Position numbers and translations under genes: made by a program
In this document: positions 3,564 to 34,900 of the stretch, piece after piece
Numbering within the stretch: the stretch's first letter is position 1
Layout: each line of letters opens with the position of its first letter
NCBI GenBank assembly: GCA_964019135.1
Contig: OZ025258.1
Coordinates: forward strand, 15,345,771 to 15,409,770
From: Arenicola marina
Taxonomy: Eukaryota; Annelida; Polychaeta; Arenicolidae
Direction of reading: 5' to 3'
Length of the DNA stretch: 64,000 bases
The notes under the pieces: generated by a model
What the model was told of the DNA's origin: nothing
Databases searched by the model: none
What the model saw: only the letters and a program-made list of their open reading frames with translations

Positions 3564-3810
3564 TCAACGTTCAAAGGCCTCCTGCTCTGGCGGCTTCTGA
3601 AACCAACGGCCGAACCCGTTGACGTTGAGCTGCTCGTAGAGGGCCTGCTTGGCCTGTTGGTAGGCCGTGGCGGCCTGCTTGACGTCGCGGTAGGTGCTGG
3701 CCTTCTGCAGACACGGATGGCGCGTGGCACCAGCCAGGAGACGCGCGCGGTACAGGAAACCAGCCTTGGCCAGCCGACTGGCGCCTGAGGCTCCAGTCCG
3801 AAACGGCGAC
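3564..3810 (-). CDS. ADAD1: ADAD1-like terminal coding exon 13
   Basis: Residues 642-723 and stop TGA. Reads [20 protein letters not shown], then an alpha-helical Lys/Gln-rich stretch ([12 protein letters not shown]) and [15 protein letters not shown], matching the ADAR/ADAD C-terminus. The acceptor after a CTCTCTAAATCTCAG pyrimidine tract gives the required phase 2; a nearer AG at 3787 would give the wrong phase. The polypyrimidine tract itself is a short tandem repeat. No polyadenylation signal is obvious within ~500 bases downstream. Confidence 0.88.
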
Positions 3811-6800
3811 CTGAGATTTAGAGAGAGATTTAGAGAGATGCAGAGAGAGATTTAGAGAGAGATTCAGATGGAGTTTAAAGGGAGATTTAGAGGGAGATTA
3901 AGGCCACTGTTTAACAGTTGTTGGCGCTCATGAAGGCTATAAACTGGACCCAAAATTGTTGACCGGAGTGGAGTACGATATTTATAAGCATATATGTGTG
4001 AACATGAGACAATATATCACACATAATACAGTTCAGGATTTGAAAGCTATATATGCATTCCTATTTCTCTAATAACCATAACAAATATATATACTAAAAA
4101 TATAGATCTATATACAACTAACCAAAATAAAACTTGTCGCGTTTTCTTTCAGGGAGGACATTCCTAATGAATTCTCTCCCCGTACCTCCACCTCCCCACG
4201 CCTCCCCCCCCACCCTCCGGCACTGACCTATCTGTGCTCTTGCCGACGCGTTCGTTGAGTATCTTGAGGCAGGGTTCGGACGTGCTCCAGTCTCCCCCCC
4301 CCCCGTACCTCCACCCCTCCCCCCTCCCGTACCTCCACACCCCTCCCCCCTGCCCTGTACCTTCACCCTCCCGTACCTCCACACCCCTCCCCCCTCCCGC
4401 ACTGACCTCTCTGTGCTCTTGCCGACGCGTCCGTTGAGTATCTTGAGACAGAGGTCAGACGCGCTCCAGTCTCCCCCCCCGTACCTCCACCCCTCCCCCC
4501 TCCCGTACCTCCACACCCCTCCCCCCTCTCGCACTGACCTCTCCGTGTACTTGCCGACACGTCCGTTGAGTATCTTGAGACAGAGGTCAGACGCGCTCCA
4601 GTCTCCCCCCCCGTACCTCCACCCCTCCCCCCTCCCGTACCTCCACACCCCTCCCCCCTCTCGCACTGACCTCTCCGTGCTCTTGCCGACACGTCCGTTG
4701 AGTATCTTGAGGCAGGGGTCGGACGCGCTCCAGTCTCCCCCCTCCCGTACCTCCACCCCTCCCCTCTCCCGAACCTCCACCCCTCCCCCCTCCCGTACCT
4801 CCAAACCCCTCCCCCCCCCTCCCGCACTGACCTCTCCGTGCTCTTGCCGACGCGTCCGTTGAGTATCTCGAGGCAGGGGTCGGACGCGCTCCAGTCTCCC
4901 TTCCCGTACCTCCCCCTCCCCCCTCCCGTACCCCCCCCCCCCCCCCACCCACGCCCTCCCCCCTCTTGCACTGACCTCTCAGTGCTCTTGCCGACGCGTC
5001 CGTTGAGTATCTCCAGGTCGGTGTCGGACGCGCTCCAGTTCAGGCTATCGGCCGTGATGCGGAGTCCGCGCGGTACCGGCTCGGCCACCGTGGGGCGCCC
5101 CATGTAGGGGTGGCGCAGCTTGTACCCCGGCGGCAGGGTGTCGTTCAGGGCGTCATCCACGCGGCAGCACAGTGCGCGGGTCAGGTGCCCGTGGTCGAAA
5201 CACGTGCCTGGGGGAAAGCAATTATAGAGATTTGCGTCAGTTATATAAGATTTATTATGTGAGATTTAGATCAATTATACAAGACTTGTATCAATTATAT
5301 AAGATTTATTACAATACAAATTATATACGATTTATTACAATACAAATTATATACCATTTATTACAATACAAATTATATACGATTTATTACAATACAAATT
5401 ATATACCAGTTATTACAATATAAATTAGAAATTACTAATTATTATATCGATTATAAAAGATTTATTGTTATATAAATTATCTAGCATTTATCATAAGACG
5501 TGGATAAATGATATAAGATGCATATAATTGATGCAAGATGCATATAAATAAAATAAATGCATATAAATAGCAGCAACGTGTTTTTAATGTTATACACGGT
5601 AAACTTCATGAATAAATCATGCAATAAAAAATATACATATATTACATATTATTGTTGTATATAGTTCTAATACATTTGTATGCATATAGAATGCCGAATT
5701 CCAGCGCAAATTGACTGCATGACGTCACTGACTGACTGCATGACGTCACTGACCGACTGCATAACGTCACTGACCGGCTGCATGACGTCAGACCGACAGC
5801 ATGACGTCACTGACCGACTGCATGACGTCACTGACCGACTGCATGACGTCAATGACCGACTGCACCACGTTACTGACCGACTGCATGACGTCACTGACCG
5901 ACTGCACCACGTCACTGACCGACTGCATGACGTCACTGAACGACAGCATGACGTCACTGACCGACTGCATGACGTCACTGACCGACTGCACCACGTCACT
6001 GGCCGACTGCATGACGTCACTGACCGACTGCATGACGTCACTGACCGACTGCATGACGTCACTGACCGATTGCATGACGTCTCTGACGACTGCATGACGT
6101 CACTGACCGACTGCACGACGTCACTGACTGACTGCATGACGTCACTGACCGTCTGCACGACGTCACTGACCGACAGCATGACGTCACTAACCAACGGTGA
6201 TGCTGCTGAAGTAGATGGGCTCGATGAAGTGCGACAGGAGCGCCCCCTGGAGACCGATCACGTTCCACTTGAGCAGCTTGTCGCTACAGGACATGATGCA
6301 CAGTGGCTCGCCCTGGCGGAGGCTGTCCATGGTCTGCTCCAGGTTCAGGTCTTTGGTGGGCACCGTCTTGAGGCCTGAGGCAGAGGCGGCGGATAGATAC
6401 AGCACAGTGCATGCCATCTGTCAAAATCTTACAAAAAATGTCAACAAAAAAGTAGTTAAAATGTAGTGAAAAAGTAACAAGGTAGGGATATAAAGAGATG
6501 TAGCATAGTGCATGTCATCTGGTAAAATCTTACAAATTAAAAAAAAAAGTAGTAAAAATGTCGTGAAAAAGTAACAAGGTAGGGATCCATCACATGCCTC
6601 ATGTAGGTTGTATATTCGGGACGCTTTATTAATAACCACTTTTGGTCATACGGCGTTAATGGGATAGAGGAAGGGATGAGTGGAGCTATGTCCCCGGGGG
6701 TAACCCCCTACTCCTTGCAAAGAAGACATGGCCACAGCGGGGCTCGAACCACCGATCTACGTGCCCTTAGGCTCTCAGGTGGCCAGAGCACTCAAGACGA

Positions 6801-9800
6801 GCGCTCTAACCCACTGAGCTACCGGGCCGGCCCCCAGGCCTAATGCTGTGGGTGTATCTCTCACCCAATAGGGGGTCTCAGACACGACTTCGCAATTATA
6901 CGCCATCTTGGAAAAAACGTGACTGGCGCAATGAGTCCCGGGAAATATTTTGGCGTTATCTTGACTTTTTTCTATGAAGATAAATACCATATTTCCAGGT
7001 AATTTGCAAGGCATGTATAACATTAATCAGCATGTCTTCTTACATCCAGATTACGTAACTTTTCCCTTACATAAAATGAAAATATTGCATGCTTAAGTGT
7101 CTACAAAATACGTTGTCATGCGAGGAGTCCATCTTGACATCTCGCAAAGACCAAAATAATACCCAGAATGCATTACACATGCAGTGGCGCCTCACAGTGA
7201 AATAATCTGAACTATGAAATGCGATATCGTCTGTTGATTAACCCAGCGCGGTGTGCCGGGGATGTCTTCACCGACCTATGTCCTCCTTCTTGACGCTGAG
7301 CAGCCCGTGGTTGTCCAGGTCAAAGTTCGGGTAGTGGAGGCCCTCGTTGAGGAGCTCCACCTCAGAGTCACTGATGGGATCGCTCGACCTGAGGACACAC
7401 AACATGGCGGCACACACCGTGTTAATTAAAGCTGCCCTCACAGCAATTATCTACTTGCATTATTATTCATTAAAATCTTTTCGAGAAATGTCTTGGATAT
7501 ATTATCTGACTGTGTGACTGTTAGAACTCTGTACGAAATAGATTGAAATTCCATCTGTGCCCTATTTCACGTAAGGGGGAGCGTCAAGGTAGAGAGGAGC
7601 TATGCCCCGGGAAGTAACCCCCTACTCGATGCAAAGGAAGCCATGTCCCCAACGGCTTTATCCTGCACAACCATGGACATTTGCAGAGGTGGGGCTCGAA
7701 TACATTCGATGTGATGACGTCATGGTATACGCACTTTCGAACAGAGGGAATTTGACCAAGCAAATGTAGATACATTTTTCTTCACTCTTTAGAAAGCGTT
7801 ACTTTCGTCTTCATCAAAGGATATTTCTTACTTCGGAGAGTGTTCGTACGCATCGCCGCAGGGCGGTGACGACATATATAGGTGGATGGACATTCCTTCT
7901 TTTAGTCGCAACAGGTTCGTATTGGGGCGTTTCTCGAAGACGGAATGCGTCATTTGACCTTCATGTACTAGTTGTATCTGCTGCACAAGGTATCTGAAAT
8001 CAAACCCATAGTTAATCATCCTCATTTCAGGACCTAGGCGACCGTTTCTGCAAGACGCTGTGCGATGCATGTACTTATTTGTTTTGGTTATAATTACACT
8101 CCGAGGTCGATTGCTTACCACGTGGAATATAAACTGTAAAGTTTAAAACGGAAACTACCAGGGTTATACAGTTTACGCCCCTTCAGATCTTGTCGTGTAA
8201 TGCACTACAGCGTACCCAAGGTACAAACAATATGCACAAATGCGATGTTTTGGGCGATAATTTGTGTAAACAAAAAACTAACCAAAACCGTAGACATAAT
8301 ATTAGGGTGTCATTTCACCAGATCTCGTAACTTTTTCTCGTAAAATTAAAAAATGTGAATTGCCGGCCCGAAGAGATATGAAGAATGTTAAATTTATCAA
8401 AAATATATGGCAAACATACTTTTGAAGTATATTGGTAGAAAATATATTGTACGAAGATGGCTGCATCCCCCAAATCGCAGTATAATGCTTATTTCAACTT
8501 ACGGTCTGTCGTTAAATTAGTATGTAAACGACAGGGCTACGAGCTCGTAACTCTTAGTGAAACGATCCCCAGGAGATGTTCGGCAGTATTTTCTTACTTT
8601 AGGAAGGCGCGTCTGACCAGCACGTGGGCGTGGCAGTCATTTAGGGTGCGACCCGTACAGTCAAAGGCTGCCGCGGCGATAGTGCAGTCGCCTGTTGCCA
8701 AGGCAACCACATCACCTGTATGTACCGGTCCTGTATCGGCGTTCAAAATCATACTTTGACAACTGTTACCACAACATAATTTAAAGGAAGGGAATTGATT
8801 GAATTTTTGATTTAAAGTAATAAAAAGGTCAGAACCGATTAAGCGTTTTCGAATCTTTGAGACTGTTTCAAAAAGCCGTGCTAGAAACCAGAACATTTTT
8901 TGACATAAAGTAATAAAAAGGTCAGAGCCTATTAGTTTTTTTTTAAATCTTTGGGACTGTTTAAAAAACACTAAGCCGTTCCAGAAACCAGTCTCATGTA
9001 CGCCTACGAGGCCAGCATTGTACAATATACGGAATTCGGCAACGAAATGAAGAGAAGCGATCACGCCCAATTGAGATTTTTCGTTGTAACGCCCCTTGGC
9101 CTGACGCTGACCTCTGCGGATAACGATGGCTGCCAGGGCGCGCTGGTCGTCAAGGAATTCTGGGTAATCCGTGGCGCCGATCAGGGCCCGGAACATCTCG
9201 AAAACGAGGCCCGTTATTTGGTCGTAATGACTCGGACCCTCGGACGTCGTATGCTTCGGCTGAAGCGACAGGCAATACGTGCCTTTATTACAAATGTTAC
9301 AAATCATTAAAGTTGCTATTTCAATAAACTGTAAAAACAAGCGGAGCGGCGGGACCGCATGAGCTCTGGTGGGGGTTTCGAAGCAAGCGAATTCAAACGT
9401 CATCAGTCGCTATGAAGCCCTGGTGCCGTAATCATAATCCCCTCGTAAGTTACGCACGAAAGTTGCGTTTTCGTCTTAGCCTCACCAGCTCGTGGTGGGG
9501 GTGTTCATGATTCAGAAATCTACTTCAATATAATTTTACCACTTCCTTAATCCCGAAAATCCATTTCTTGGGTCACTACTTGTATTTTGAACACCAAAAT
9601 CCCTCTACAAATCTTCCACTTATCGCTAAATCTAGTGACGATTTTGAATACGCCCCCTGATCACTATGATCGTAGGATTATGCGTTCAAATCTCATGTTT
9701 TTCTCAACAACAACCCAATTTCTCTGAAAAATGTGGTCCTCTCCACAATCGTCACGTCTGAAGAAACACTTTAGGGGCATCTCGCTGGGTTTTTTTTGTA

Positions 9801-12800
9801 ATAAAATGAAATATTGGTGTGGTAGGCACATGATTTGTGCACATGAAGCTAAAAACGAGGCCAAGAAACCTCCAGGGCAAGCGGAACAAGGAGTTAGATG
9901 AAACATGCCCCAAATACGGAGGTACCTGGGCGCGAACCCACGACCGTTTGATCTGCAGCTCAGTCTGCTTATAAAATTATCTAACGAAGCTCCTTATGTT
10001 TTCAATGAAGCTTAACAATAGTCATAGTTTTTTTCTAGATGCTTACGTCTCTGTAGGTGTTAATGAAACGCAAAGCTTCCTCCGCGCAACGCTTCTTGGC
10101 TTCTTTCTTCGTCAGCGCCGTTGCCGTGGCAACGAGGTCGTCCGCGATCCACACTGTGGACCGGAAGCTCCTGTCGAGAAAGAACAAAGGAAACAAAGGT
10201 CACAACAGGATTACCACAAGTATCACAATGAGCGGATAAAACTCCCACAAGATTACAACAGATATCGCTGAGATAGGTTTGATTTGATTTGATTGGGGCT
10301 TAACGGCACTTTCAGCCTGGAAGGCTATATCGTGCCATACTGGTCAATATTAGTCAATATTAAAACCCTGAAAATCAATACATGTGATATGAATAAAACC
10401 ATGAATGCAGTCTTTGTGGAATCGATTAATAGTTTAATAAAACCCTGAAGATATCAAGTAAAATGATTGAGTAGATTGTCATAAAACCATGAAAGTGAAG
10501 AATGGCTGAGATAGGAGAGTGAAGGAATGAAGCAGGGAAGGAAGGAAGGTAAAGAATGAAGAGACGAAATAAGGGAAAGGAATAGAAGCGAAGACTGCTG
10601 AGTAGGAGGGGGCGGAAGAAATGGTAGGTAGGCATGGAGGAATTCAACGATTGAACGGAATGATGGGAAGTAATAACGGAAATATCTGAATGGAAGAAAT
10701 AATAAGAGGAAGAAGGAATAATGAGCGAAGCAATGAATATAACAAACATGGCGGAAAGAGAATGAATCAAGGGAAAGAAATAAGGGCAAGTAACGGAGAG
10801 GAGTAAGGAAAGGAAAAAAATGAATGGAAGGCAGTGATTCTGATAGGTAGACCAGTGGGTGGGTCCTAGTGTCTCAGAGCTCCTTAAAATTATGGGACAT
10901 CGAACAATAGTGGAACATTAATTGACATGAAATGTTGCGTAGTTCGCTCACTATATATTTCCAATGTGTCACCATGTCCCCTCACAGGTCGGTGAAATGC
11001 GTCATTTAAAAACTTTCGTGGGACAAATGACGCAGGACGCATAGCTATCAAAATCGCTGGGAAGGTATAGACGGATTATGTGGAATGAAGAGATTCGATT
11101 GAGTAACGATAATAAAGAAAGAGAGTATATAGCACGGAAGACTATATAGCACGGAATGAATATAGGAAATACAGTAAAGAACTGACCGGCCAGCGATTAC
11201 TGTACCCACCCATCGGCCTCGGGTTTTTCCGAGATCTCGTAGTCGACCTTGGCGCTTCTCCTGGCTGTGTACTCCTGGAGCATCATCACCGGATGCTTCT
11301 CGGCCTGGTCCTCGGCGAGTGCAACCGCTCCCCGCACGGGGGCGCCGCCGCTGCCGCCGGGGATGGACGCGGCCGGTAGGGGCGCCGCACTGCAGCTGCC
11401 GTAGGGGTCCCCAACGTCCACTGGAAGGTACGGGGGAAAGGAAGACGGGGGTTTGAAGACAGAGGGATCGCGTGAATGATGTGTCGTGTTCACACTAGGG
11501 GCTGGGCGGGTGGCTCCGTGGGTAGTTGGGTGAGGGTGGCGCAGCCAGATCTTAGAATATTATACCAGCCTGAGCAGGCTCAAATTTTACAGAAAGAAAC
11601 GCACAAAGAAACGAAGGGGTGAGGCACTTACACCGCGCAGCTATATCTTAGCATATTAAACCAGCCATAGGAGGATTGGACATTACAGAAAGAAAGGCAC
11701 ATTAACCATTGCGGGGAAGATATTTATTGGAATGAATGGAGCAAAGTCAACGTCCACACACGTCTTACATGCGTAGGAATAAGGTAAATTCCTCGAATAA
11801 TTGAAAAATGAAGGAAGGTTGAACAGGTCATAGTTCTCAAGGTGTTTTATAGTTCTCAGTGGCTCGCAATGGATATACCATATCCAATTATCTGTCTTTT
11901 TATCTGTCTATACAATCTGGTGTTTGTAACCCGTCTATACAATCTAGTGTTTGTAACCTGTCTATACAATCTGGTGTTTGTAACCTGTCTATATGTGGTG
12001 CATATTATACGTCGATTTACCTGGTGGCTGTTGTCTGATTATATCTGTAAACGTGAATTATCTGGTGTCTATTATTTGCCTATTATCTGTAAACCGTTAT
12101 TATCTGGTCTCTGTTATCTGTCTATTATCTGGTGTGTATTATCGGTGTATAAAATGTTCATACCTGTCTCGGAATCCTCCGTCAGGCCCAAGAGGATGTC
12201 AAAGGCAATCTTCGCCGCCTGAGTCTTGGCTTCTTTCTTAGTATTCCCACAACCCTACAAACAAACACCAATCACATCCTTACTATAGTGTGTGGGGAAG
12301 GGGGCTCTGTCAGCCTGTGACCCCTACAAACAAACACCAATCACATCCTTACTATAGTGTGTTGGAAAGGGGGCTCTGTCAGCCTGTGACCTCTACAAAC
12401 AAACACCAATCACATCCTTACTATAGTGTGTGGGGAAGGGAGGGGGGAGGGGGTCCGTCAGCCTGTGACACCTGCCAATCAATCAATGAGTAGCAGAAGA
12501 TCTTGATAAAGAGGTACATGTATGTCAAAAGTAAAATCACACTACACCGCAATAATTGCATTGTTAAATCTAAAAAATGAGCACTAAAATGAGTCGCGCA
12601 TAGACATCGCAAATCAACATCATAGAATCTGGGAAAGTAGGTCTTACCTGCTGGTCTTCCTTTAATCAACACTACGGTTTATTACTGATTGATGCATACT
12701 CACTGACCTGTGGGTAGAGCGTGTTGTCATCACTACTGACCTGTGGGTAGAGCGTGTTGTCATCACTACTGACCTGTGGGTAGAGCGTGTTGTCATCACT

Positions 12801-15800
12801 ACTGACCTGTGGGTAGAGCGTGTTGTCATCACTACTGACCTGTGGTTAGAGCGTGTTGTCATCACTACTGACCTGTGGGTAGAGCGTGTTCTCTCATCTA
12901 ACTGACCTGTGGGTAGAGCGTGTTCTCTCATCTCACTGACCTGTGGGTAGAGCGTGTTCTCTCATCTCACTGACCTGTGGGTAGAGCGTGTTCTCTCATC
13001 TCACTGACCTGTGGGTAGAGCGTGTTCTCTCACCTCACTGACCTGTGGGTAGAGTGTGTTGTCATCTCAATGACCTGTGGGTAGAGCGTGTTCTCTCATC
13101 TCACTGACCTGTGGGTAGAGCGTGTTCTCTCATCTCACTGACCTGTGGGTAGAGCGTGTTCTCTCATCTCACTGACCTGTGGGTAGAGCGTGTTCTCTCA
13201 TCTCACTGACCTGTGGGTAGAGCGTGTTGTCTCACTGACCTGTGGGCAGAGCGTGTTCTCTCATCTCAATGACCTGTGGGTAGAGCGTGTTCTCTCATCT
13301 CACTGACCTGTGGGTAGAGCGTGTTCTCTCACCTCAATGACCTGTGGGTAGAGCGTGTTCTCTCATCTCAATGACCTGTGGGTAGAGCGTGTTCTCTCAT
13401 CTAACTGACCTGTGGGTAGAGCGTGTTCTCTCATCTCACTGACCTGTGGGTGGAGCGTGTTCTCTCATCTCACTGACCTGTGGGTAGAGCGTGTTCTCTC
13501 ATCTTACTGACCTGTGGGTAGAGCGTGTTTTCTCATCTCACTGACCTGTGGGTAGAGCGTGTTCTCTCATCTCACTGACCTGTGGGTAGAGCGTGTTCTC
13601 TCACCTCACTGACCTGTGGGTAGAGCGTGTTCTCTCACCTCAATGACCTGTGGGTAGAGCGTGTTCTCTCACCTCAATGACCTGTGGGTAGAGCGTGTTC
13701 TCTCACCTCACTGACCTGTGGGTAGAGCGTGTTCTCTCATCTCACTGACCTGTGGGTAGAGCGTGTTCTCTCACCTCACTGACCTGTGGGTAGAGCGTGT
13801 TCTCTCATCTCACTGACCTGTGGGTAGAGCGTGTTCTCTCACCTCACTGACCTGTGGGTAGAGCGTGTTCTCTCATCTCAATGACTTGTGGGTAGAGCGT
13901 GTTCTCTCACCTCACAGACCTGTGGGTAGAGCGTGTTCTCTCATCTCAATGACCTGTGGGTAGAGCGTGTTCTCTCACCTCAATGACCTGTGGGTAGAGC
14001 GTGTTCTCTCATCTCACTGACCTGTGGGTAGAGCGTGTTCTCTCACCTCACTGACCTGTGGGTAGAGCGTGTTCTCTCACCTCACTGACCTGTGGGTAGA
14101 GCGTGTTCTCTCACCTTACTGACCTGTGGGTAGAGCGTGTTCTCTCATCTCACTGACCTGTGGGTAGAGCGTGTTCTCTCACCTTACTGACCTGTGGGTA
14201 GAGCATGTTCTCTCATCTCACTGACCTGTGGGTAGAGCGTGTTGTCATCTCACTGACCTGTGGGTAGAGCGTGTTCTCTCACCTTACTGACCTGTGGGTA
14301 GAGCATGTTCTCTCATCTCACTGACCTGTGGGTAGAGCGTGTTGTCATCTCACTGACCTGTGGGTAGAGTTTTTTGTCTATCTGACACTGGAAGGCGAAG
14401 CAGGGCCTCAGGAAGGCCCTGGTGGCCGCCACCTCGCTGAAGGTGGCCGGCACCTTCATGATGGCGGCGTACTCCATCACGGCGCTGACCGGGTGCTTCT
14501 TGGTGCTGGTGTAATCCTGGATCAGCTCCTTTGGCACCTTGGCGGGCTGGCCACGGCCCGGCTGGATCGGGGCGTCCGGCTGCTTCTGGCCCGGCAGCCC
14601 TGTGGAGCGGACAGGGGGAGGGTCATAGCGGGTGGGGGGGGGGGGGCGAGAAGGTGATTGTATGTTTTGAACAATGCATGAGAGTTGGATAGACTAAAAT
14701 TCATGAGAAGAAGCCAAATTAAGAAAAAAAATGGGAATTGAATCATGAAGAAGAGAAAAATTAAGAAAAAAAATGTGAATGAATGTGTGAAGTTTCTAAA
14801 AAGTGATAAATGTATAAATGGCGTTAAGAAGTGCATAAATGGATGGTGCTAAGGCAGTTGTAATATGAAACTTGTTATTCTTGTTAACAAATGCATCTTT
14901 AGCGAAATGTGGATGATATTTATTGAGGCAAGAATAGAGAGGGTATACTACACCTCACCTAGACCAAGCTGGATTATAATTGACGCTCAAATTTATCAAT
15001 TATTGAAGAAACAAAATGAAAGAAAATAAAGAAATAATACAGGTGTCCCTTTTAGCATTGATATGTTGCAGATATATCACTGTACCGATTGTTAAACAGA
15101 CACACATACACACACTGACCTGGGATGTACTGCTGGGCAGTCTGTTGTCGAGCTTCATACTGCTTGATTGGCTCGGAGGCTCTGGCCAAAGCAGCGGGGT
15201 AGGGATTGGCTGGGATGGAGGCCCCACTGACCATGCCACCCCCAGGCCTTGACATCTGCAGCAAACCTTCTGCTTTACACGAGCTATAGCCACATACGCA
15301 GTTTTCACAGTTATCTATGTAATGGTCTGTCTGTCTACTAGCTCAGGATGGAGAAAGCAGAAGAACCCAGAGTACTGTAGATTTTGTTTGTCTTGTATGA
15401 ATGCTATGCATATACATATAAAGGGTAAAAAAAATGCCCATACACAGAAGACCACTAGCAAGAACTCTGTTGTTAATACAAGTGGATAGATATAATGTAT
15501 ACCGGTAGGCTTGGTTGGTTGCACATGTAGTTGGTTGTATATTTTCAGGATGCTTTAACCAATTCTGGTCATATCGCGTCAATGGGAGAAGGAATGGGAA
15601 GAGCGGAGCCATGTCCCTGGGGTTAACCCCCTACTCTTTGCAAAGAAGGACATGGGATCTTTCTCCTGCGATCACGCAGACATGGCCACAGCGGGGCTGG
15701 AACCATCGATCCACGTGCCGTTAGGCTCTCCGGTGGCCGGAGCGTTCAATGCGAGCGCTCTAACCCACTGAGCTATCGGGGCGGCCCCACAAGTGGATAT

Positions 15801-15970
15801 ATATATAAGTTGTAGGCTTGGTATCCCACCTGCTGCTGTCTTCCGGCATTAGGATAACCTCGTCCCAGGCCTTGGCTGGCCATCAGCTGCTGTTGCTGCT
15901 GAACTGGCATGAATTTTGGGACGGTCTTTGGGGCACGCAGCCCACTACGACCCACACCTTCATTGTCCAT
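3564..15970 (-). CDS. ADAD1: ADAD1-like (TENR-like) adenosine deaminase domain protein, 13 coding exons (gene overview)
   Basis: The predicted product is a double-stranded-RNA-binding protein of the ADAR/ADAD family. Joining the 13 exons listed below (141, 136, 242, 91, 220, 124, 148, 133, 162, 113, 183, 232 and 247 nt) gives 2172 nt, or 723 residues, with every intron phase matched. In order: a Gln-rich N-terminus (1-92), dsRBD1 (~128-198), a Gly/Pro/Ala linker, dsRBD2 (~246-316) and an ADAR-type deaminase domain (~320-723). Zinc ligands H401, C457 (PCGD) and C533 (SCSDK) are present, but the catalytic Glu of the HAE motif is His403, so editing activity is unlikely. The KVPKEL/HPVSA stretch before dsRBD1, [10 protein letters not shown] and the SPF..G..ASRL block resemble vertebrate ADAD1, as I remember it, more than ADARs; vertebrate ADAD1 has only one dsRBD. 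ADAD1 acts in male germ cells in mammals; a similar role here is inference. An acceptor directly before the ATG implies upstream non-coding exons, which I could not locate. Confidence 0.9.
3813..3900. repeat. AGAGATTT repeat forming the exon 13 pyrimidine tract
   Basis: (GAGAGATTTA)n on plus, that is (TAAATCTCTC)n on minus, immediately before the acceptor at 3811. The repeat supplies the polypyrimidine tract of that intron. Confidence 0.75.
4210..4976 (-). repeat. Exon-intron junction minisatellite at ADAD1-like exon 12
   Basis: Six units of ~130-180 bp including the authentic one. Each holds the last ~62 bases of exon 12 (WSASD..LEILN.RVGKS-type coding sequence), the donor (A)G|GTCAGTGC and a G-rich intronic stretch. 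Donor complements (ACTGAC) are at 4222, 4401, 4533, 4665, 4826 and 4970. The copies keep the exonic frame but carry substitutions such as TDLE to PCLE/PCLK. Copies lack a pyrimidine tract upstream and so are unlikely to be separate exons. Confidence 0.9.
4976..5207 (-). CDS. ADAD1: ADAD1-like coding exon 12
   Basis: Residues 565-642, [50 protein letters not shown]. Matches the ADAR/ADAD C-terminal core (HGDHLSRA-, LNKP- and NW..GD..EV.N..TGK-like blocks). The acceptor is CTTTCCCCCAG and the donor is GAGAG|GTCAGTGC (phase 2). The last ~62 exonic bases plus the donor are duplicated five more times in the following intron (4.2-4.97 kb). Confidence 0.92.
5298..5420. repeat. AT-rich tandem array, ~26-bp unit
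   Basis: About five units of TTTATTACAATACAAATTATATA. In the ADAD1-like intron, ~90 bp upstream of the exon 12 acceptor in transcript order, so close to the expected branch-point region. Confidence 0.8.
5705..6190 (-). repeat. 21-bp CRE-containing minisatellite starting at the exon 11 donor
   Basis: About 22 units of CATGACGTCACTGACCGACTG (plus). Each contains a TGACGTCA palindrome (the CREB/ATF consensus) and, on the sense minus strand, CGGTCAGTGACG, a donor-like GTCAGT. The array is continuous with the real donor GTTG|GTTAGTGACGTC at 6191. Unit length is a multiple of 3, so all six frames stay open. Confidence 0.92.
6192..6374 (-). CDS. ADAD1: ADAD1-like coding exon 11 (SCSDK motif)
   Basis: Residues 504-565. 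Contains [18 protein letters not shown] and [13 protein letters not shown], strongly conserved in ADAR/ADAD proteins. Zinc ligand Cys533 is kept, and Lys536 matches the inositol-phosphate-contacting Lys of ADAR2 (family knowledge). The acceptor is TGCCTCAG and the donor is GTTG|GTTAGTGACG (phase 1). The donor runs straight into the 21-bp array at 5.7-6.2 kb. Confidence 0.92.
6601..6835 (-). mobile_element. SINE family A copy
   Basis: tRNA-derived SINE whose sense strand is minus. The head has an A-box-like TAGCTCAGTGGGTTAGAGC and a B-box-like GGTTCGAGCCCC; the body carries the conserved AGTAGGGGGTTACCCCCGGG; the tail is TCCTGAATATACAACC-like. It lies in the intron between ADAD1-like exons 10 and 11. 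Confidence 0.8.
7276..7388 (-). CDS. ADAD1: ADAD1-like coding exon 10 (variable insert of deaminase domain)
   Basis: Residues 466-504, [16 protein letters not shown]... ending VKKEDIG. This is the poorly conserved segment between the second and third zinc motifs. Borders are GTCCTCAG|GTCGAG and ATAG|GTCGGT (phase 1). Its identity rests on position and phase rather than sequence similarity. Confidence 0.75.
7435..7540. repeat. Dispersed repeat copy (family with 41.55 and 60.46 kb)
   Basis: Shares TGACTGTGTGAATGTTAAC/TACGAAATA-like sequence and spacing with 41545-41660 and 60462-60560. The three copies are diverged, so this is an old interspersed repeat of unknown class. Confidence 0.45.
7578..7705 (-). 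mobile_element. SINE family A, diverged partial copy
   Basis: Retains the ATGCCCCGGGAAGTAACCCCC body and a decayed B box (GGGGCTCGAATACA). The tRNA head is missing. Intron between exons 9 and 10. Confidence 0.55.
7832..7993 (-). CDS. ADAD1: ADAD1-like coding exon 9 (PCGD motif)
   Basis: Residues 412-466, YLVQQIQLV..., [27 protein letters not shown]. This aligns with the ADAR segment ending in the PCGD zinc-ligand motif; Cys457 is retained. The acceptor is GATTTCAG|A and the donor is CGAA|GTAAGA (phase 2). Confidence 0.9.
8598..8730 (-). CDS. ADAD1: ADAD1-like coding exon 8 (HAE-equivalent motif, altered)
   Basis: Residues 368-412, [10 protein letters not shown]... then [16 protein letters not shown]. 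In active ADARs this motif is DCHAE, with His as zinc ligand and Glu as proton shuttle. Here the Glu codon is CAC (His403), while the ligand His401 is kept. The donor is CTAAA|GTAAGA. The acceptor is uncertain: ATACAG at 8731 or CATACAG at 8716 both give phase 1 and the same frame; the first gives a more family-like spacing. Confidence 0.83.
9112..9259 (-). CDS. ADAD1: ADAD1-like coding exon 7 (start of deaminase domain)
   Basis: Residues 319-368. [16 protein letters not shown] and [10 protein letters not shown] match the start of the ADAR-type deaminase fold. The acceptor is CTGTCGCTTCAG|CC and the donor is GAG|GTCAGC (phase 1). The open frame runs on past the donor, but that part has no family similarity and is read as intron. 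Confidence 0.85.
9800..9970 (-). mobile_element. SINE family B, diverged copy
   Basis: The minus strand carries a B-box-like GGGTTCGCGCCCAGG followed by GGGGCATGTTTCATC and CTTGGCC. In the intron between ADAD1-like exons 6 and 7. Confidence 0.6.
10047..10170 (-). CDS. ADAD1: ADAD1-like coding exon 6 (end of dsRBD2)
   Basis: Residues 277-318, [12 protein letters not shown] then [18 protein letters not shown], the beta strands and KKEAK helix 2 of dsRBD2. The acceptor is TTTCTCGACAG and the donor is GAC|GTAAGC in phase 0. A second dsRBD is an ADAR2-like feature not present in mammalian ADAD1. Confidence 0.87.
10480..10830. repeat. Purine-rich simple sequence, ADAD1-like intron 5
   Basis: GGAAGGAAGGTAAAGAATGA-type sequence over ~350 bases. 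No gene or clear unit length. Confidence 0.6.
11201..11420 (-). CDS. ADAD1: ADAD1-like coding exon 5 (linker and start of dsRBD2)
   Basis: Residues 204-277. A Gly/Ala/Pro linker leads into [13 protein letters not shown], helix 1 of a second dsRBD, then KVDYEIS. The acceptor is CCTTCCAG|TG. Two phase-2 donors are possible: CA|GTAATC at 11200 (used here, giving ..DGWVQ) or GG|GTGGGT at about 11208. Either joins exon 6 in frame. Confidence 0.82.
11886..12000. repeat. Short tandem array in ADAD1-like intron 4
   Basis: Three to four units of CTGTCTATACAATCTGGTGTTTGTAAC type. Followed to 12150 by degenerate TATTATCTG repeats reaching the exon 4 donor. Confidence 0.65.
12164..12254 (-). CDS. ADAD1: ADAD1-like coding exon 4 (end of dsRBD1)
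   Basis: Residues 174-204, [21 protein letters not shown], the KKEAK..AA helix-2 signature that contacts RNA in dsRBDs. It completes dsRBD1 begun in exon 3. The acceptor is TTTGTTTGTAG|GG and the donor is GACAG|GTATGA (phase 1). The acceptor lies in a ~70-bp unit repeated three times upstream. Confidence 0.88.
12255..12465 (-). repeat. Tandem repeat carrying the exon 4 acceptor
   Basis: Three units of ~70 bp. On the sense strand each ends in TTTGTTTGTAG|GG, the pyrimidine tract and AG of exon 4, at 12255, 12324 and 12395. Only the most downstream copy is followed by the coding sequence. Confidence 0.85.
12695..14370 (-). repeat. 34-bp minisatellite repeating the exon 3 5' splice site
   Basis: About 49 units. 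Sense-strand units contain CGCTCTACCCACAG|GTCAGTGAG plus ATGAGAGAA; the left half derives from the end of exon 3 and the right half from intron 3. Units at the low-coordinate end are a 31-bp variant with GTTGTCATCACTA. The array begins at the authentic donor (14357) and fills most of the intron. Confidence 0.95.
14358..14599 (-). CDS. ADAD1: ADAD1-like coding exon 3 (start of dsRBD1)
   Basis: Residues 93-173. Contains [10 protein letters not shown] followed by [10 protein letters not shown], the alpha-1 helix of a dsRBD, and [14 protein letters not shown], its first beta strands. The acceptor has a C-rich tract (CGCTCCACAG). The donor is CTACCCACAG|GTCAGTGAG in phase 0. The last ~13 exonic bases and the donor are the founder unit of the 12.7-14.4 kb array that immediately follows in the intron. 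Confidence 0.88.
15120..15255 (-). CDS. ADAD1: ADAD1-like coding exon 2
   Basis: Residues 48-93, low-complexity Gly/Ala/Gln sequence beginning MSRPGGGMV. The acceptor is TTTGCTGCAG and the donor is CCCAG|GTCAGTG, leaving phase 1. This donor is followed by a short GT-rich stretch but no array, unlike the donors of exons 3, 11 and 12. Confidence 0.75.
15523..15788 (-). mobile_element. SINE family A, near full length
   Basis: Complete tail-body-head order on the plus strand (GGTTGGTTG... to ...ACTGAGCTATCGGGGCGG), so the promoter points along minus. Inserted in the first coding intron of the ADAD1-like gene. Confidence 0.85.
15830..15970 (-). CDS. ADAD1: ADAD1-like coding exon 1 (N-terminus)
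   Basis: Residues 1-47, starting [10 protein letters not shown] and containing a short glutamine run (VQQQQQ). The ATG directly follows a TTATTTTAG acceptor, so the 5' UTR is split. The exon ends CAG|GTGGGA in phase 0 and joins in frame to exon 2. No domain is recognised; the segment looks disordered. The start is preferred because it is the first Met of the open frame after the acceptor. Confidence 0.75.
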
Positions 15971-25613: not shown

Positions 25614-25998
25614 CTAGAGGAACCCCCCGTCGCCCCGACGCGGGAGCCCCAAGTTCGGCAAGACCTCCCCGATGAAGGACGCGACCTTCTGGGCGGCGGC
25701 CCCGGCACCGGCCCCGGCGGCGGGGGGCGGAGGGGCCACCGCCGGCCGCCCGGTCACGATGCGCCCGATGAGCCCGGCCGGGTTGAGCTCGTGGCGGACG
25801 ACCTCATTGTTAACCCGGACCTGGGCGTCGGGCTGGCCGTAGTCCGGCGGGAAGGCGTCCGGGTCGTACCCCAGGGTTTCCAGCATGGGCGCCAGTTGCC
25901 GGACGTCGAGGCGGACGTCCTCCGGGAAGGCGGCCACCCAGCTGGTGAGGGCCGCCGTGTTGATTGGCTTCTCCACCTGGTCCGTCGACAGCTCCTTG
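25614..25998 (-). CDS. TPST: TPST terminal coding exon 2
   Basis: Residues 313-440 and stop TAG. Begins KELSTDQVEKPIN, then WVAAFPEDV, LAPMLETLGYDPDAFPPDYG, conserved TPST C-terminal blocks. After PDAQV the sequence departs from vertebrate TPSTs into a GRPAVAPPPPAAGAGAG tail. The acceptor follows a (CT)n tract (TCTCTGTTACAG). A ~125-bp segment just past the stop is repeated about 205 bp upstream of the exon in the intron. Confidence 0.92.
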
Positions 25999-28900
25999 CT
26001 GTAACAGAGAGAGAGAGAGAGAGAGAGAGGGTGAGAGAGGGTAGGGTGAGTGCATGGTGTGTGCATGGTGTAACAGAGAGAGAGAGAGAGGGGTGGGGGG
26101 GGGGGGGGTCGGGTGAGTGCAGGCATGGCACGATTACTGCACGAAACACACAGGGTGAAAAAATGCGTGGTGCAGAACTGCTGAGTAACTGCTGAGTAAA
26201 ACATGAGGGTTCCCGTGGGGCATCCCACCCCCCAACGGACTTAATACCCTGAGGGTGCCATCAAGCCAGCGGGCAGCCAGCCGCCCGTGTCCAACCCGTG
26301 ACCCCGCGCCCCCCCAACCCCCAGGCAGCAGAACTGCTGAGTGCAAGGCAGTACAGTACAAGTGTGTGGTTGTCAATTCTGACTCGACCCCGTATATATA
26401 TAAGGAAAATTCTTTCTCTTGTCACGCTGTGCTAATTTCTTCTTCATTTACATCTCCATCAGCGTAGTAAAGTATCATTAACTCATAATCCCATAATGTA
26501 GATTAACTTAACTAGATGGGGGTACTAATGTTACTAATGTTGTGAAATTGTCGCATGTCCTTGACTCTGCTAGACTTCAATGCTCCCAACAGCAGTCTCG
26601 ACTAAAATGGGGAGCAGTTATTTTTCCACTGCCTTCGGGTGAGATAGGGTAAACCTATCTTGGCCTGTAGCTACCTTAGTATTGAAAGTCTAGACAGCTA
26701 CGGTTTGTTGGAGAGCCTTCCACTATGAGAGGCGAAGAAGTATAATTATTTTCTCGGATTTACTGTTTTACAAATTGTTGAAATTCGCTGTCACTACAGG
26801 AATAAGGGCAGATTATCCATACTTGGTGGCACACCAACTGTTAGCGGCATCATATGTGCCAAATGGCATGGAAATGAAAAATAATACTTCAAACGCCAAC
26901 AAATGATTAAATATTAAGATGGAACCCTATGCCATGGCCATGCTAAAGCCTCCATATGTCAGTGTATGTGTGCGTGGGTCTCCGTAGGTCGCAAACCGTA
27001 CATTTCCGTCATCATCCCGAATAGTACTGAGTCACCTGGTCTGATTGGTTGGTTATTCAGGACGCTTTAACCACTTTTGGTCACATCGCGTCAATGGGAG
27101 AAGGAAGGGAGAGTGGAGCCATGTCCCCGGGGGTAACCCCCTTCTCTTTGCGAAGGACATGGGATCTTTATACTGCGACCACACTGACATGGCCACAGCG
27201 GGGCGCGAACCACCGACCCACGTGCCGTTAGGCTCTCAGGTGACCAGAGCACTCAATGCGAGCGCTCTAGCCCACTGAGCTGTCGTGCCGGCCCCTCTCC
27301 TGGTCGGATGTTTTTACGCGTAATTTCTCGAACCATACCTCATCATGGTGGACTATTTCATCTCGGACGAAACGATCCCACCTACGCAGTTCGAATAGAC
27401 CCATCCCGAAACCACTCCTTCGCAACTCTTTGGCGCACTGCGTCTGGCGGATGCCGAAGACGTTACAACTGCCATTATTGGGAAGATCATCGCTGTCTTA
27501 TCAACCATAACATGACAAAGAGTACAGGGCCATTACACCAGCACTGTACCACGTGACTTCAGCAGTCGATGAACCCCCTTCGGGCGCTTAAGGTGCTGTT
27601 TTTACAATGGAAACATAAAACCATCCAGCATCAACTGAAAGACAAGACGCTCCGTCGCCATTAATGGAGTTATCGTTTCTCCTTTACCCCAACCCCCACC
27701 TCACCCCGGAGCCCTAGCTGCTAGCACTCTCACATCACCTCACCCCGGAGCACTAGCCGTCACCACCCTCACCTCACCCCGGAGCCCTAGCTGCCACCAC
27801 CCTCACCTCACCTCACCCCGGGGGCCCTAGCTGCCACCACCCTCACATCACCTCACCCCGGAGCCCTAGCTGCCACCACCTTCACATCACCTCACCCCGG
27901 AGCACTAGCTGCCACCACCCTCACATCACCTCACCCTAGCTGCCACCACCCTCCCCTCACCCCCGGAGCCCTAGCTGCCACCACCCTCACATCACCTCAC
28001 CCCGGAGCCCTAGCTGCCACCACCCTCACATCACCTCACCCTAGCTGCCACCACCCTCCCCTCACCCCCGGAGCCGTAGCTGCCACCACCCTCACATCAC
28101 CTCATCCCGGACCCATCCCGAAACCACTCCTTCGCAACTCTTTGGCGCACTGCGTCTGGCGGATGCCGAAGACGTTACAACTGCCATTATTGGGAAGATC
28201 ATCGCTGTCTTATCAACCATAACATGACAAAGAGTACAGGGCCATTACACCAGCACTGTACCACGTGACTTCAGCAGTCGATGAACCCCCTTCGGGCGCT
28301 TAAGGTGCTGTTTTTACAATGGAAACATAAAACCATCCAGCATCAACTGAAAGACAAGACGCTCCGTCGCCATTAATGGAGTTATCGTTTCTCCTTTACC
28401 CCAACCCCCACCTCACCCCGGAGCCCTAGCTGCTAGCACTCTCACATCACCTCACCCCGGAGCACTAGCCGTCACCACCCTCACCTCACCCCGGAGCCCT
28501 AGCTGCCACCACCCTCACCTCACCTCACCCCGGGGGCCCTAGCTGCCACCACCCTCACATCACCTCACCCCGGAGCCCTAGCTGCCACCACCCTCACATC
28601 ACCTCACCCCGGAGCACTAGCTGCCACCACCCTCACATCACCTCACCCTAGCTGCCACCACCCTCCCCTCACCCCCGGAGCCCTAGCTGCCACCACCCTC
28701 ACATCACCTCACCCCGGAGCCCTAGCTGCCACCACCCTCACATCACCTCACCCTAGCTGCCACCACCCTCCCCTCACCCCCGGAGCCGTAGCTGCCACCA
28801 CCCTCACATCACCTCACCCCGGAGCCCTAGCTGCCACCACCCTCACATCACCTCACCCCGGAGCCCTAGCTGCCACCACCCTCACATCACCTCACCCTAG

Positions 28901-31900
28901 CTGCCACCACCCTCCCCTCACCCCCGGAGCCCTAGCTGCCACCACCCTCACATCACCTCACCCCGGAGCCCTAGCTGCCACCACCCTCACATCACCTTAC
29001 CCTAGCTGCCACCACCCTACCCTGAACCCGGAGCCCTAGGTGCCACCACCCTCACATCACCTCACCCCGGAGCCCTAGCTGCCACCACCCTCACATCACT
29101 TCACCCCCGGAGCCCTAGCTGCCACCACCCTCACATCACCTCACCTTAGCTGCCACCCCCCTCCCCTCACCCCGGAACACTAGCTGCCACCACCCTCACC
29201 TCACCCCGGAGCCCTAGCTGCCACCACCCTCCCATCACCCCCGGAGCCCTAGCTGCCACCACCCTCACATCACTCCCGGAGCCCTAGCTGCCACCACCCT
29301 CCCACCACCCCCGGAGCCCTAGCTGCCACCACCCTCCAATCACCCCGGAGCCCTAGCTGCCACCACCCTCCCATCACCCCCGGAGCCCTAGCTGCCACCC
29401 CCCTCCCATCACCCCCGAAGCCCTAGCTGCCACCCCCCATCCATCACCCCCGGAGCCCTAGCTGCCACCACCCTCCCATCACCCCCGGAGCCATAGCTGC
29501 CACCACCCTCCCATCACTCCCGGAGCCCGAGCTGCCACCACCCTCCCATCACCCCCGGAGCCATAGCTGCCACCACCCTCCCATCACCCCCGGAGCCCTA
29601 GCTGCCACCCCCCATCCATCACCCCCGGAGCCCTAGCTGCCACCACCCTGCCATCACCCCCGGAGCCCTAGCTGCCACCACCCTCCCATCACCCCCGGAG
29701 CCCTAGCTGCCACCCCCCTCCCCTCACCCCGGAACACTAGCTGCCACCACCCTCCCATCACCCCTGGAGCCCTAGCTGCCACCACCCTCCCATCACCCCT
29801 GGAGCCCTAGCTGCCACCACCCTCCCATCACCCCCGGAGCCCTAGCTGCCATCACCCTCCCATCACCCCCGGAGCCCTAGCTGCCCCCACCCTCCCATCA
29901 CCCCCGGAGCCCTAGCTGCCACCACCCTCCCACCACCCCCGGAGCCCTAGCTGCCCCCACCCTCCCATCACCCCCGGAGCCCTAGCTGCCCCCACCCTCC
30001 CATCACCCCCGGAGCCCTAGCTGCCACCACCCTCCCATCACCCCCGGAGCCCTAGCTGCCACCCCCCTCCCATCAACCCCGGAGCCCTAGCTGCCACCAC
30101 CCTCCCATCACCCCCGGAGCCCTAGCTGCCACCACCCTCCCATCACCCCCGGAGCCCTAACTGCCACCACCCTCCCATCACCCCCGGAGCCCTAGCTGCC
30201 CCCACCCTCCCATCACCCCCGGAGCCCTAGCTGCCCCCACCCTCCCATCACCCCCGGATCCCTAGCTGCCACCACCCTCCCATCACCCCCGGAGCCCTAG
30301 CTGCCACCACCCTCACATCACCCCCGGAGCCCTAGCTGCCACCACCCTCCCACCACCCCCGGAGCCCTAGCTGCCACCACCCTCCCATCACCCCCGGAAC
30401 CCTAGCTGCCACCACCCTCCCATCACCCCCGGAGCCCTAGCTGCCCCCCTCCTCCCATCACCCCCGGAGCCCTAGCTGCCACCACCCTCCCATCACCCCC
30501 GGAGCCCTAGCTGCCACCACCCTCCCACCACCCCCGGAGCCCTTGCTGCCACCACCCTCCCCCACCCCACCCCGGAGCCCTAGCTGCCACCACCCTCCCA
30601 TCACCCCCGGAGCCCTAGCTGCCACCACCCTCCCACCACCCCCGGAGCCCTAGCTGCCACCACCCTCCCATCACCCCCGGAGCCCTAGCTGCCACCACCC
30701 TCCTACCACCCCCGGAGCCCTAGCTGCCACCACCCTCCCATCACCCCCGGAGCCCTAGCTGCCACCACCCTCCCACCACCCCCGGAGCCCTAGCTGCCAC
30801 CACCCTCCCATCACCCCCGGAGCCCTAGCTGCCACCACCCTCCCACCACCCCCGGAGCCCTAGCTGCCACCACCCTCCCATCACCCCCGGAGCCCTAGCT
30901 GCCCCCACCCTCCCATCACCCCCGGAGCCCTAGCTGCCACCACCCTCCCCCACCCCACCCCGGAGCCCTAGCTGCCACCACCCTCCCCTCACCCCACCCC
31001 GGAGCCCTAGCTGCCCCCACCCTCCCACCCCACCCCGGAGCCCTAGCTGCCACCACCCTGCCATCACCCCCGGAGCTCTAGCTGCCACCCCCCTCCCATC
31101 ACCCCCGGAGCCCTAGCTGCCACCACCCTCCCCTCACCCCCGGAGCCCTAGCTGCCACCCCCCTCCCATCACCCCCGGAGCCCTAACTGCCACCACCCTC
31201 CCATCACCCCCGGAGCCCTAGCTGCCCCCACCCTCCCATCACCCCCGGAGCCCTAGCTGCCCCCACCCTCCCATCACCCCCGGATCCCTAGCTGCCACCA
31301 CCCTCCCATCACCCCCGGAGCCCTAGCTGCCACCACCCTCACATCACCCCCGGAGCCCTAGCTGCCACCACCCTCCCACCACCCCCGGAGCCCTAGCTGC
31401 CACCACCCTCCCATCACCCCCGGAACCCTAGCTGCCACCACCCTCCCATCACCCCCGGAGCCCTAGCTGCCCCCCTCCTCCCATCACCCCCGGAGCCCTA
31501 GCTGCCACCACCCTCCCATCACCCCCGGAGCCCTAGCTGCCACCACCCTCCCACCACCCCCGGAGCCCTTGCTGCCACCACCCTCCCCCACCCCACCCCG
31601 GAGCCCTAGCTGCCACCACCCTCCCATCACCCCCGGAGCCCTAGCTGCCACCACCCTCCCACCACCCCCGGAGCCCTAGCTGCCACCACCCTCCCATCAC
31701 CCCCGGAGCCCTAGCTGCCACCACCCTCCTACCACCCCCGGAGCCCTAGCTGCCACCACCCTCCCATCACCCCCGGAGCCCTAGCTGCCACCACCCTCCC
31801 ACCACCCCCGGAGCCCTAGCTGCCACCACCCTCCCATCAACCCCGGAGCCCTAGCTGCCACCACCCTCCCACCACCCCCCGGAGCCCTAGCTGCCACCAC

Positions 31901-34900
31901 CCTCCCATCACCCCCCGGAGCCCTAGCTGCCACCACCCTCCCACCACCCCCGGAGCCCTAGCTGCCACCACCCTCCCATCACCCCCGGAGCCCTAGCTGC
32001 CCCCACCCTCCCATCACCCCCGGAGCCCTAGCTGCCACCACCCTCCCCCACCCCACCCCGGAGCCCTAGCTGCCACCACCCTCCCCTCACCCCACCCCGG
32101 AGCCCTAGCTGCCCCCACCCTCCCACCCCACCCCGGAGCCCTAGCTGCCACCACCCTGCCATCACCCCCGGAGCTCTAGCTGCCACCCCCCTCCCATCAC
32201 CCCCGGAGCCCTAGCTGCCACCACCCTCCCCTCACCCCCGGAGCCCTAGCTGCCACCCCCCTCCCATCACCCCCGGAGCCCTAACTGCCACCACCCTCCC
32301 ATCACCCCCGGAGCCCTAGCTGCCCCCACCCTCCCATCACCCCCGGAGCCCTAGCTGCCCCCACCCTCCCATCACCCCCGGATCCCTAGCTGCCACCACC
32401 CTCCCATCACCCCCGGAGCCCTAGCTGCCACCACCCTCACATCACCCCCGGAGCCCTAGCTGCCACCACCCTCCCACCACCCCCGGAGCCCTAGCTGCCA
32501 CCACCCTCCCACCACCCCCGGAGCCCTTGCTGCCACCACCCTCCCCCACCCCACCCCGGAGCCCTAGCTGCCACCACCCTCCCATCACCCCCGGAGCCCT
32601 AGCTGCCACCACCCTCCCACCACCCCCGGAGCCCTAGCTGCCACCACCCTCCCATCACCCCCGGAGCCCTAGCTGCCACCACCCTCCTACCACCCCCGGA
32701 GCCCTAGCTGCCACCACCCTCCCATCACCCCCGGAGCCCTAGCTGCCACCACCCTCCCACCACCCCCGGAGCCCTAGCTGCCACCACCCTCCCATCACCC
32801 CCGGAGCCCTAGCTGCCACCACCCTCCCACCACCCCCGGAGCCCTAGCTGCCACCACCCTCCCATCACCCCCGGAGCCCTAGCTGCCCCCACCCTCCCAT
32901 CACCCCCGGAGCCCTAGCTGCCACCACCCTCCCCCACCCCACCCCGGAGCCCTAGCTGCCACCACCCTCCCCTCACCCCACCCCGGAGCCCTAGCTGCCC
33001 CCACCCTCCCACCCCACCCCGGAGCCCTAGCTGCCACCACCCTGCCATCACCCCCGGAGCTCTAGCTGCCACCCCCCCTCCCATCACCCCCGGAGCCCTA
33101 GCTGCCACCACCCTCCCCTCACCCCCGGAGCCCTAGCTGCCACCCCCCTCCCATCACCCCCGGAGCCCTAACTGCCACCACCCTCCCATCACCCCCGGAG
33201 CCCTAGCTGCCCCCACCCTCCCATCACCCCCGGAGCCCTAGCTGCCCCCACCCTCCCATCACCCCCGGATCCCTAGCTGCCACCACCCTCCCATCACCCC
33301 CGGAGCCCTAGCTGCCACCACCCTCACATCACCCCCGGAGCCCTAGCTGCCACCACCCTCCCACCACCCCCGGAGCCCTAGCTGCCACCACCCTCCCATC
33401 ACCCCCGGAACCCTAGCTGCCACCACCCTCCCATCACCCCCGGAGCCCTAGCTGCCCCCCTCCTCCCATCACCCCCGGAGCCCTAGCTGCCACCACCCTC
33501 CCATCACCCCCGGAGCCCTAGCTGCCACCACCCTCCCACCACCCCCGGAGCCCTTGCTGCCACCACCCTCCCCCACCCCACCCCGGAGCCCTAGCTGCCA
33601 CCACCCTCCCATCACCCCCGGAGCCCTAGCTGCCACCACCCTCCCACCACCCCCGGAGCCCTAGCTGCCACCACCCTCCCATCACCCCCGGAGCCCTAGC
33701 TGCCACCACCCTCCTACCACCCCCGGAGCCCTAGCTGCCACCACCCTCCCATCACCCCCGGAGCCCTAGCTGCCACCACCCTCCCACCACCCCCGGAGCC
33801 CTAGCTGCCACCACCCTCCCATCAACCCCGGAGCCCTAGCTGCCACCACCCTCCCACCACCCCCGGAGCCCTAGCTGCCACCACCCTCCCATCACCCCCG
33901 GAGCCCTAGCTGCCACCACCCTCCCACCACCCCCGGAGCCCTAGCTGCCACCACCCTCCCATCACCCCCGGAGCCCTAGCTGCCCCCACCCTCCCATCAC
34001 CCCCGGAGCCCTAGCTGCCACCACCCTCCCCCACCCCACCCCGGAGCCCTAGCTGCCACCACCCTCCCCTCACCCCACCCCGGAGCCCTAGCTGCCCCCA
34101 CCCTCCCACCCCACCCCGGAGCCCTAGCTGCCACCACCCTGCCATCACCCCCGGAGCTCTAGCTGCCACCCCCCTCCCATCACCCCCGGAGCCCTAGCTG
34201 CCACCACCCTCCCCTCACCCCCGGAGCCCTAGCTGCCACCCCCCTCCCATCACCCCCGGAGCCCTAACTGCCACCACCCTCCCATCACCCCCGGAGCCCT
34301 AGCTGCCCCCACCCTCCCATCACCCCCCGGAGCCATAGCTGCCCCCACCCTCCATCACCCCCGGATCCCTAGCTGCCACCACCCTCCCATCACCCCCGGA
34401 GCCCTAGCTGCCACCACCCTGACTCCTTGTCACCTTGGTATGTAACGAGAAATTTAACTAAAAGATCCTGGCCATCCTCAACATGGCCGTATATCTTCTC
34501 CAATAGATCAAAAACCTGGCCAGCAGTACAAGTGGCCGTTAGGGCGATATGGCTCACATGGTCTAACGCAGGTCTGAGTAGGCTCTGTAACATTGAACGC
34601 TTGGTACCAATATCAGAAATCTGCGAATCAAAATGTTGGAGGGGCAGTAACCTCCAAGTCGGGAAATCGACCTCCCCGTTGCCCAAGGCCTTATTCCTTG
34701 ATAAGAGACGTAGCTTCCTCACTTGGGTTCTGGGAAGAGAACTGTCAACAGATGAATGAGTTTATACAGATGTGGGCGACACGAAGGACCGAGAAGACAA
34801 GGGGGGGGTGTATGACCGAGAAGATATTACCGGGCCAATGCCGCATAATGTACCGGGCCAATGCCGCATACTGTACCGGGCCAATGCCGCATACTGTACT

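Follow-up and report, generated by a model that had tools for sequence, protein, structure and literature searches.

Minisatellite-like duplications of intron-exon boundaries, termed mirages, are known from amphioxus, where the available portions of PMC3087553 describe them in globin genes and Adh3 and cite papers on two more loci, a retinol dehydrogenase and presenilin. In the available parts of PMC3902484, PGBD5 and troponin C are added as mirage genes. Repeat units measure 10-72 bp in Adh3, 150-160 bp in the globins, and 60 and 108 bp in PGBD5 (PMC3087553, PMC3902484, excerpts). The same excerpts report allele length differences and somatic instability of Adh3 (PMC3087553), with splicing apparently normal for Adh3, the globins, and TnC genes of like anatomy (PMC3087553, PMC3902484); the authors call the mechanism unclear and mirages a possibly general feature of cephalochordates (PMC3087553). 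In human genes within segmental duplications, variable internal tandem repeats have been described, some of them at exon-intron boundaries (PMC2812944, in part). A related process is the gain of introns when AG/GT sequence is duplicated in tandem, proposed by Rogers in 1989 (as cited in the available part of PMC3087553) and described for potato RdRp (PMC4974935, in part).

The window analyzed here is a stretch of 64,000 nucleotides from the polychaete Arenicola marina, to whose first letter all positions refer. It contains an ADAR-like gene in which four splice junctions lie inside tandem arrays. This kind of array is already published as mirages; what is new is an unusually rich four-junction example. 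The first-pass annotation had likened the arrays to the mirage minisatellites of amphioxus Adh, rightly as to kind, the anatomy being that published in the portions available. As in Adh3, BflGb6, BflGb9, troponin C and PGBD5, the repeat unit holds a boundary, donor or acceptor, often with AG/GT. Unlike those cases, as far as the excerpts describe them, four arrays (three donors and one acceptor) occur in one gene, one array has 49 intronic copies, and the arrays are known from genomic sequence alone. The human repeats of PMC2812944, in the part available, likewise have minisatellite-length units (about 30 bp on average) and in some cases lie at exon-intron boundaries, but belong to recent primate paralogs and can alter splicing or coding, whereas exon-proximal use is the probable situation here. 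Tandem duplication that brings additional splice signals is also common to the Rogers and potato RdRp cases as excerpted; the difference is that the ADAR-like junctions pre-exist and gain copies, with no new intron shown. Among the matches listed from the open-licence literature, in the portions available, there was neither a genome-wide mirage survey nor a report on the arrays of this gene. The expectation that four arrays in one gene would be notable holds up: all four were confirmed, and for a single gene the case is rich. Side by side and differing in unit length and exon content, they make a compact test bed for two questions: what makes the spliceosome settle on a single donor when dozens are identical, and whether minisatellites accumulate at splice junctions beyond what intron geometry predicts.

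The ADAR-like gene and its junction arrays

The gene was modeled as follows.

3564..15970, minus strand: ADAR-like gene, complete model, 13 coding exons, 715 aa, GT-AG introns, one frame
15970-15830, minus strand: exon 1
15255-15120, minus strand: exon 2
14599-14358, minus strand: exon 3
12254-12164, minus strand: exon 4
11420-11210, minus strand: exon 5
10170-10047, minus strand: exon 6
9259-9112, minus strand: exon 7
8715-8598, minus strand: exon 8
7993-7832, minus strand: exon 9
7388-7276, minus strand: exon 10
6374-6192, minus strand: exon 11
5207-4976, minus strand: exon 12
3810-3564, minus strand: exon 13

The predicted 715-aa protein matches the double-stranded-RNA-binding Pfam family dsrm in two stretches and the adenosine-deaminase/editase family A_deamin over profile positions 1-329 of 329 (E 3.1e-89). 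Its best-scoring PDB chain is 9b83_A, ADAR1 (E 3.2e-80). Because all phases fit and the deaminase domain is complete, the predicted exon borders are well supported, and those assumed in the first-pass annotation are likewise supported by the 13-exon, frame-consistent GT-AG reading. Among 8000 candidates scored, no homolog of the protein was found at E 0.001 or better. The deaminase motif in exon 8 (8598-8715) has a His at the position held by Glu in the NDCHAEIISRR of solved ADAR1. This Glu is the catalytic glutamate; with His in its place, the gene may encode an ADAR/ADAD-like RNA-binding protein that lacks activity.

Arrays were detected with Tandem Repeats Finder (TRF) in one haplotype and then read unit by unit. 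Three of the 12 donors (exons 3, 11 and 12) and one of the 12 acceptors (exon 4) lie within a tandem array that holds their own splice site, at junctions 14358/14357 (exon 3 donor), 6192/6191 (exon 11 donor), 4976/4975 (exon 12 donor) and 12254/12255 (exon 4 acceptor).

12699..14369, minus strand: exon 3 donor array (TRF), 34-bp unit, 49 intronic copies
12253..12440, minus strand: exon 4 acceptor array (TRF), 69-bp unit, 3 copies, the last authentic
5713..6192, minus strand: exon 11 donor array (TRF), 21-bp unit, about 23 copies
4228..5039, minus strand: exon 12 donor array, authentic plus 5 intronic copies, units 132-179 bp (4295-5039 by TRF, the last copy added by reading)
3813..3901, minus strand: 12-bp pyrimidine-rich repeat (TCTCTCTAAATC), ending 3 nt away from where exon 13 begins

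The last of these repeats abuts the exon 13 acceptor junction without spanning it. On the frame-consistent model, the unit of each of the other four includes a genuine exon-intron boundary, and AG/GT signals occur in many but not all units at exons 3, 11 and 12, as expected of a mirage.

The first-pass annotation had placed its observation at 4210-6190, which takes in two of the four arrays; the other two lie at 12.25-14.37 kb. It correctly described different unit lengths after exons 3, 11 and 12 (34, 21 and 132-179 bp) and a fourth array repeating the exon 4 acceptor. Its statement that arrays start at the authentic donor is true of exon 11, where the array start is the junction itself, and fails for exons 3 and 12, where the array starts inside the exon. 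A donor is present in most units rather than in every one as had been claimed: of the 49 intronic exon 3 copies, 39 have an intact CAG/GTCAGT (the slash marking the junction), and the GT is missing from at least one unit at exon 11. The appearance of beginning at the authentic donor is moreover partly built in, because the exon end is set by whichever donor is used, and later copies must look intronic.

A pyrimidine stands at donor position +3 in six of the 12 introns, after exons 2, 3, 7, 10, 11 and 12; the hexamers include GTCAGT (three times), GTTAGT, GTCAGC and GTCGGT. All three arrayed donors belong to this group. A pyrimidine at this position is rare in vertebrates.

Composition of the four arrays

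Positions, units, exon content and shared words of the arrays can be read directly from the DNA. At exon 3, whose last base is 14358, the unit consists of the exon end CTCTACCCACAG followed by GTCAGTGAG, and a few units measure 29-33 bp instead of 34 bp. The array starts within the exon: 12 nt of exon are identical to the unit and about 33 nt are homologous. The opening 32 nt of intron 3 can be aligned with the final 33 nt of exon 3. For the part of the unit upstream of the 12-nt tail, shuffled sequences matched the exon as well in 0 of 1000 trials (first unit) and in 6 of 1000 (modal unit). The 49 intronic copies comprise 17 distinct sequences. Identity to the modal unit is 0.91 in the first unit and 0.88-0.91 in the last five; in the middle it is mostly 0.94-1.0, with values of 0.82, 0.85 and, twice, 0.91 also occurring.

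An intron 3 whose 5' end is built from exon sequence invites comparison with the Rogers model, in which tandem duplication of an AG/GT-containing exon sequence causes intron gain or a shift of the donor. The 32-nt alignment agrees with that model, and the available part of the globin paper (PMC3087553) proposes mirages as a source of intron gain. Intron 3, however, contains further sequence as well and ends in an ordinary acceptor, and the homology between intron and exon is accounted for by the array itself; we regard intron gain or donor shift as quite unlikely here.

Most exon 11 copies begin G/GTCAGTGACG, the authentic sequence being GTTAGTGACG; the authentic donor is thus GTTAGT, against GTCAGT in most array copies. 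The exon 11 unit was also considered as a copy of exon sequence and rejected, since 98 of 1000 shuffles gave a similarity as good.

The exon 12 unit comprises the final 64 nt of exon 12, the donor GTCAGTGC, and a G-rich intron piece; the array is G-rich on the sense strand. All five intronic copies retain AG/GTCAGTGC. Their exonic parts contain no indels and, from nearest to farthest, 5, 7, 12, 9 and 10 mismatches to the exon, with DLE of exon 12 changed to CLE or CLK. As a look at a possible coding role of the copies, differences were counted: 27 nonsynonymous and 16 synonymous over five related and non-independent copies, compared with 139:41 among the possible single changes. In the exon 4 unit, the 3' splice-site region is accompanied by 2 nt of exon.

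A common founder for the arrays was rejected: by inspection, the units share the donor word GTCAGTG alone, and exon 2 has GTCAGTG with no detected array. It is very improbable that the arrays were enlarged by an assembly or collapse artefact. The window does have a run of N (36200-36399), and near-identical blocks are visible by eye in another array region (27.7-28.7 kb), but the exon 3 units vary, the exon 12 copies differ from the exon at 5-12 sites, and an artefact would not yield several different units all spanning junctions. Exact copy numbers may be wrong.

Proposed origin of the arrays and probable use of the authentic splice sites

The arrays are probably mirage-type minisatellites, each founded when a short segment containing a splice junction was duplicated in tandem where it stood. 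The four events would have been separate, and later growth would have come from replication slippage or unequal exchange. Such growth would be tolerated since splicing would take place at the exon-proximal site, and surplus copies would leave with the intron, which would make them neutral. Where the unit includes an exon end, unequal exchange within the array would restore an intact exon end and donor.

A candidate trace of a founder event is found at exon 3, whose pre-array junction was reconstructed by fusing exon sequence directly to the flank beyond the array.

14386..14390, minus strand: exon 3 CAGTG; the donor (GT-CAGTG) carries a second one 35 bp away

The word CAGTG occurs at -33 and +3 of this reconstructed junction, 35 bp apart, the unit being 34 bp. 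A search for shared 5-mers at distances of 28-38 bp found this pair and one other, GTCAG at -29 and +1, 29 bp apart, which fits less well. The CAGTG pair is possibly the breakpoint microhomology of the founder, and a single slip or end-joining between the CAGTG words of exon and donor could have made the founder duplication. Nothing convincing was seen at the exon 11 founder breakpoint when microhomology was sought, and inspection of the exon 12 and exon 4 breakpoints showed no more than two or three shared bases.

Use of the downstream exon 3 donor copies would truncate the protein in seven of seven cases tried (48 intronic CAG/GT copies were counted), as would use of exon 11 copies in eight of eight tried (17 counted by pattern) and of both upstream exon 4 acceptor copies. 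At exons 3, 4 and 11, where the other copies tried truncate the protein, a full-length product would depend on splicing at the site next to the exon. Donor strength cannot explain this choice at exon 3, because 39 of the 49 copies match the authentic donor exactly; the likely cue is proximity to the exon. At exon 12, the first downstream donor (+144; 4832-4975) is in frame and would add 48 residues, so that its use could give a possible isoform. Of the remaining four exon 12 copies, three meet no stop before the joined coding sequence ends, and one does.

The arrays might instead be kept or enlarged by selection, with redundant sites buffering against mutation or contraction or aiding weak donors, for which repeated U1 sites or G-rich intronic enhancers would be the means. 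The G-rich sense strand of the exon 12 array would suit this proposal, as would the large size of the junction arrays documented below and the +3 pyrimidine of all three arrayed donors. Three of three arrayed donors would, however, fall among those six by chance with a probability of about 0.09 (20/220, by hand), and the exon 3 and exon 11 copies tried would yield truncated products if used. We consider selection of this sort rather improbable.

Are splice junctions preferred sites?

The first-pass annotation had proposed that exon-intron junctions, or structures formed there, nucleate minisatellites, which amounts to a raised rate of tandem duplication at splice sites. A control for chance, such as any genome-wide claim requires, was obtained from a geometric null model. 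TRF rows in the ADAR-like gene were merged by hand into 14 arrays, four of which span a junction, and for each a founder segment of unit length was placed at random in its own intron. The null treats arrays as independent and ignores selection, and the P values are accordingly rough. With array-free intron length as the target, 2.62 junction-spanning arrays are expected among 14, and P = 0.25 for at least four; with whole intron length as the target, 1.39 are expected, and P = 0.034. Enrichment of arrays at junctions is not established.

Size sets the junction arrays apart. They are the four top-scoring of the 14 (exact P = 0.001) and hold ranks 1, 2, 3 and 5 by length (P = 0.002), both comparisons having been chosen post hoc. 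With score cut-offs of 200 and 300, P under the null is 0.096 and 0.005 for array-free length and 0.004 and 0.00002 for whole length, again a reflection of the large arrays being the junction ones. Top scores of the junction arrays are not predicted by the ordinary-duplication explanation.

Predicted folding gave no common signal. At the inferred pre-array junctions, folding z was -1.14 for donor 3, +1.35 for donor 11, -1.91 for donor 12 and +0.31 for acceptor 4, compared with -2.07 to +1.17 at the nine other donors and -1.28 to +1.53 at the 11 other acceptors. RNA structure was rejected as nucleator on this comparison of four arrayed with 20 other junctions. Donor 12 has the lowest raw folding energy of the 24 junctions and a strong G skew. 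Junction-centered 24-mers with copies in the gene region numbered two of 24, compared with 803 of 1997 sampled intronic 24-mers (including those within the arrays themselves) and 11 of 371 sampled exonic ones; being strict, the measure does not pick up the arrays at exons 11 and 4, which have at most 2 nt of exon per unit.

A second gene in the window served as control.

25614..40455, minus strand: tyrosylprotein sulfotransferase (TPST), control gene, 440 aa, one coding intron 39517-25999

Its 13.5-kb coding intron is array-rich, yet no array found by TRF spans either junction, and the large ones are located away from both. A 51-bp repeat runs from 56 nt off the donor and a CT-type repeat from 8 nt off the acceptor. 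A neighboring gene sharing junction arrays, as the first-pass annotation had suggested looking for, is therefore not provided by TPST at its two coding-intron junctions. For further control genes, ten ORFs picked by eye from 335 were compared with Pfam: one was the C-terminal piece of TPST, one gave a PNMA match above cut-off, and two gave weak matches below it. Other genes in the window may have been overlooked.

The proposal of nucleation thus draws on the whole-length P value and on the four highest scores, but is opposed by the array-free expectation, the folding comparison, the TPST junctions and, within its stated scope, the 24-mer count. With null P values of 0.034-0.25, the earlier claim is not supported, and nucleation at junctions seems to us unlikely. 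Also unlikely, though slightly less so, is that junctions in this lineage favor long-lived minisatellites through survival or longer growth and not through more frequent starts. Units with an exon end and donor would be recombination-neutral and supply a redundant splice site, so that arrays would persist and lengthen; the suggestion fits because the four junction arrays are the four top-scoring ones.

Other features of the window

Within the TPST intron, two arrays occupy 27697-36199, one with a 35-bp unit in about 170 copies and one with a 23-bp unit in about 60. A PNMA-like (Pfam) fragment at 34396-34761 lies between them, and the N run at 36200-36399 adjoins this region. A dispersed element with coding fragments recurs several times (6700-6835, 15600-15790, 27080-27290 and more); parts of it look tRNA-like by eye, and ARAGORN finds no tRNA. 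Outside both modeled genes, 46017-48764 is a 2.7-kb array of short units (19, 25 and 69 bp; ACTCGGCCCATTCGCCCAC...).

The palindrome TGACGTCA, which we take to be CRE-like, occurs 12 times in the window outside four masked arrays, compared with about 0.9 expected from base composition. It is found window-wide, for example at 2736-3241, 25108-25184 and 38077-38773, and a further 16 occurrences lie in the 21-bp array.
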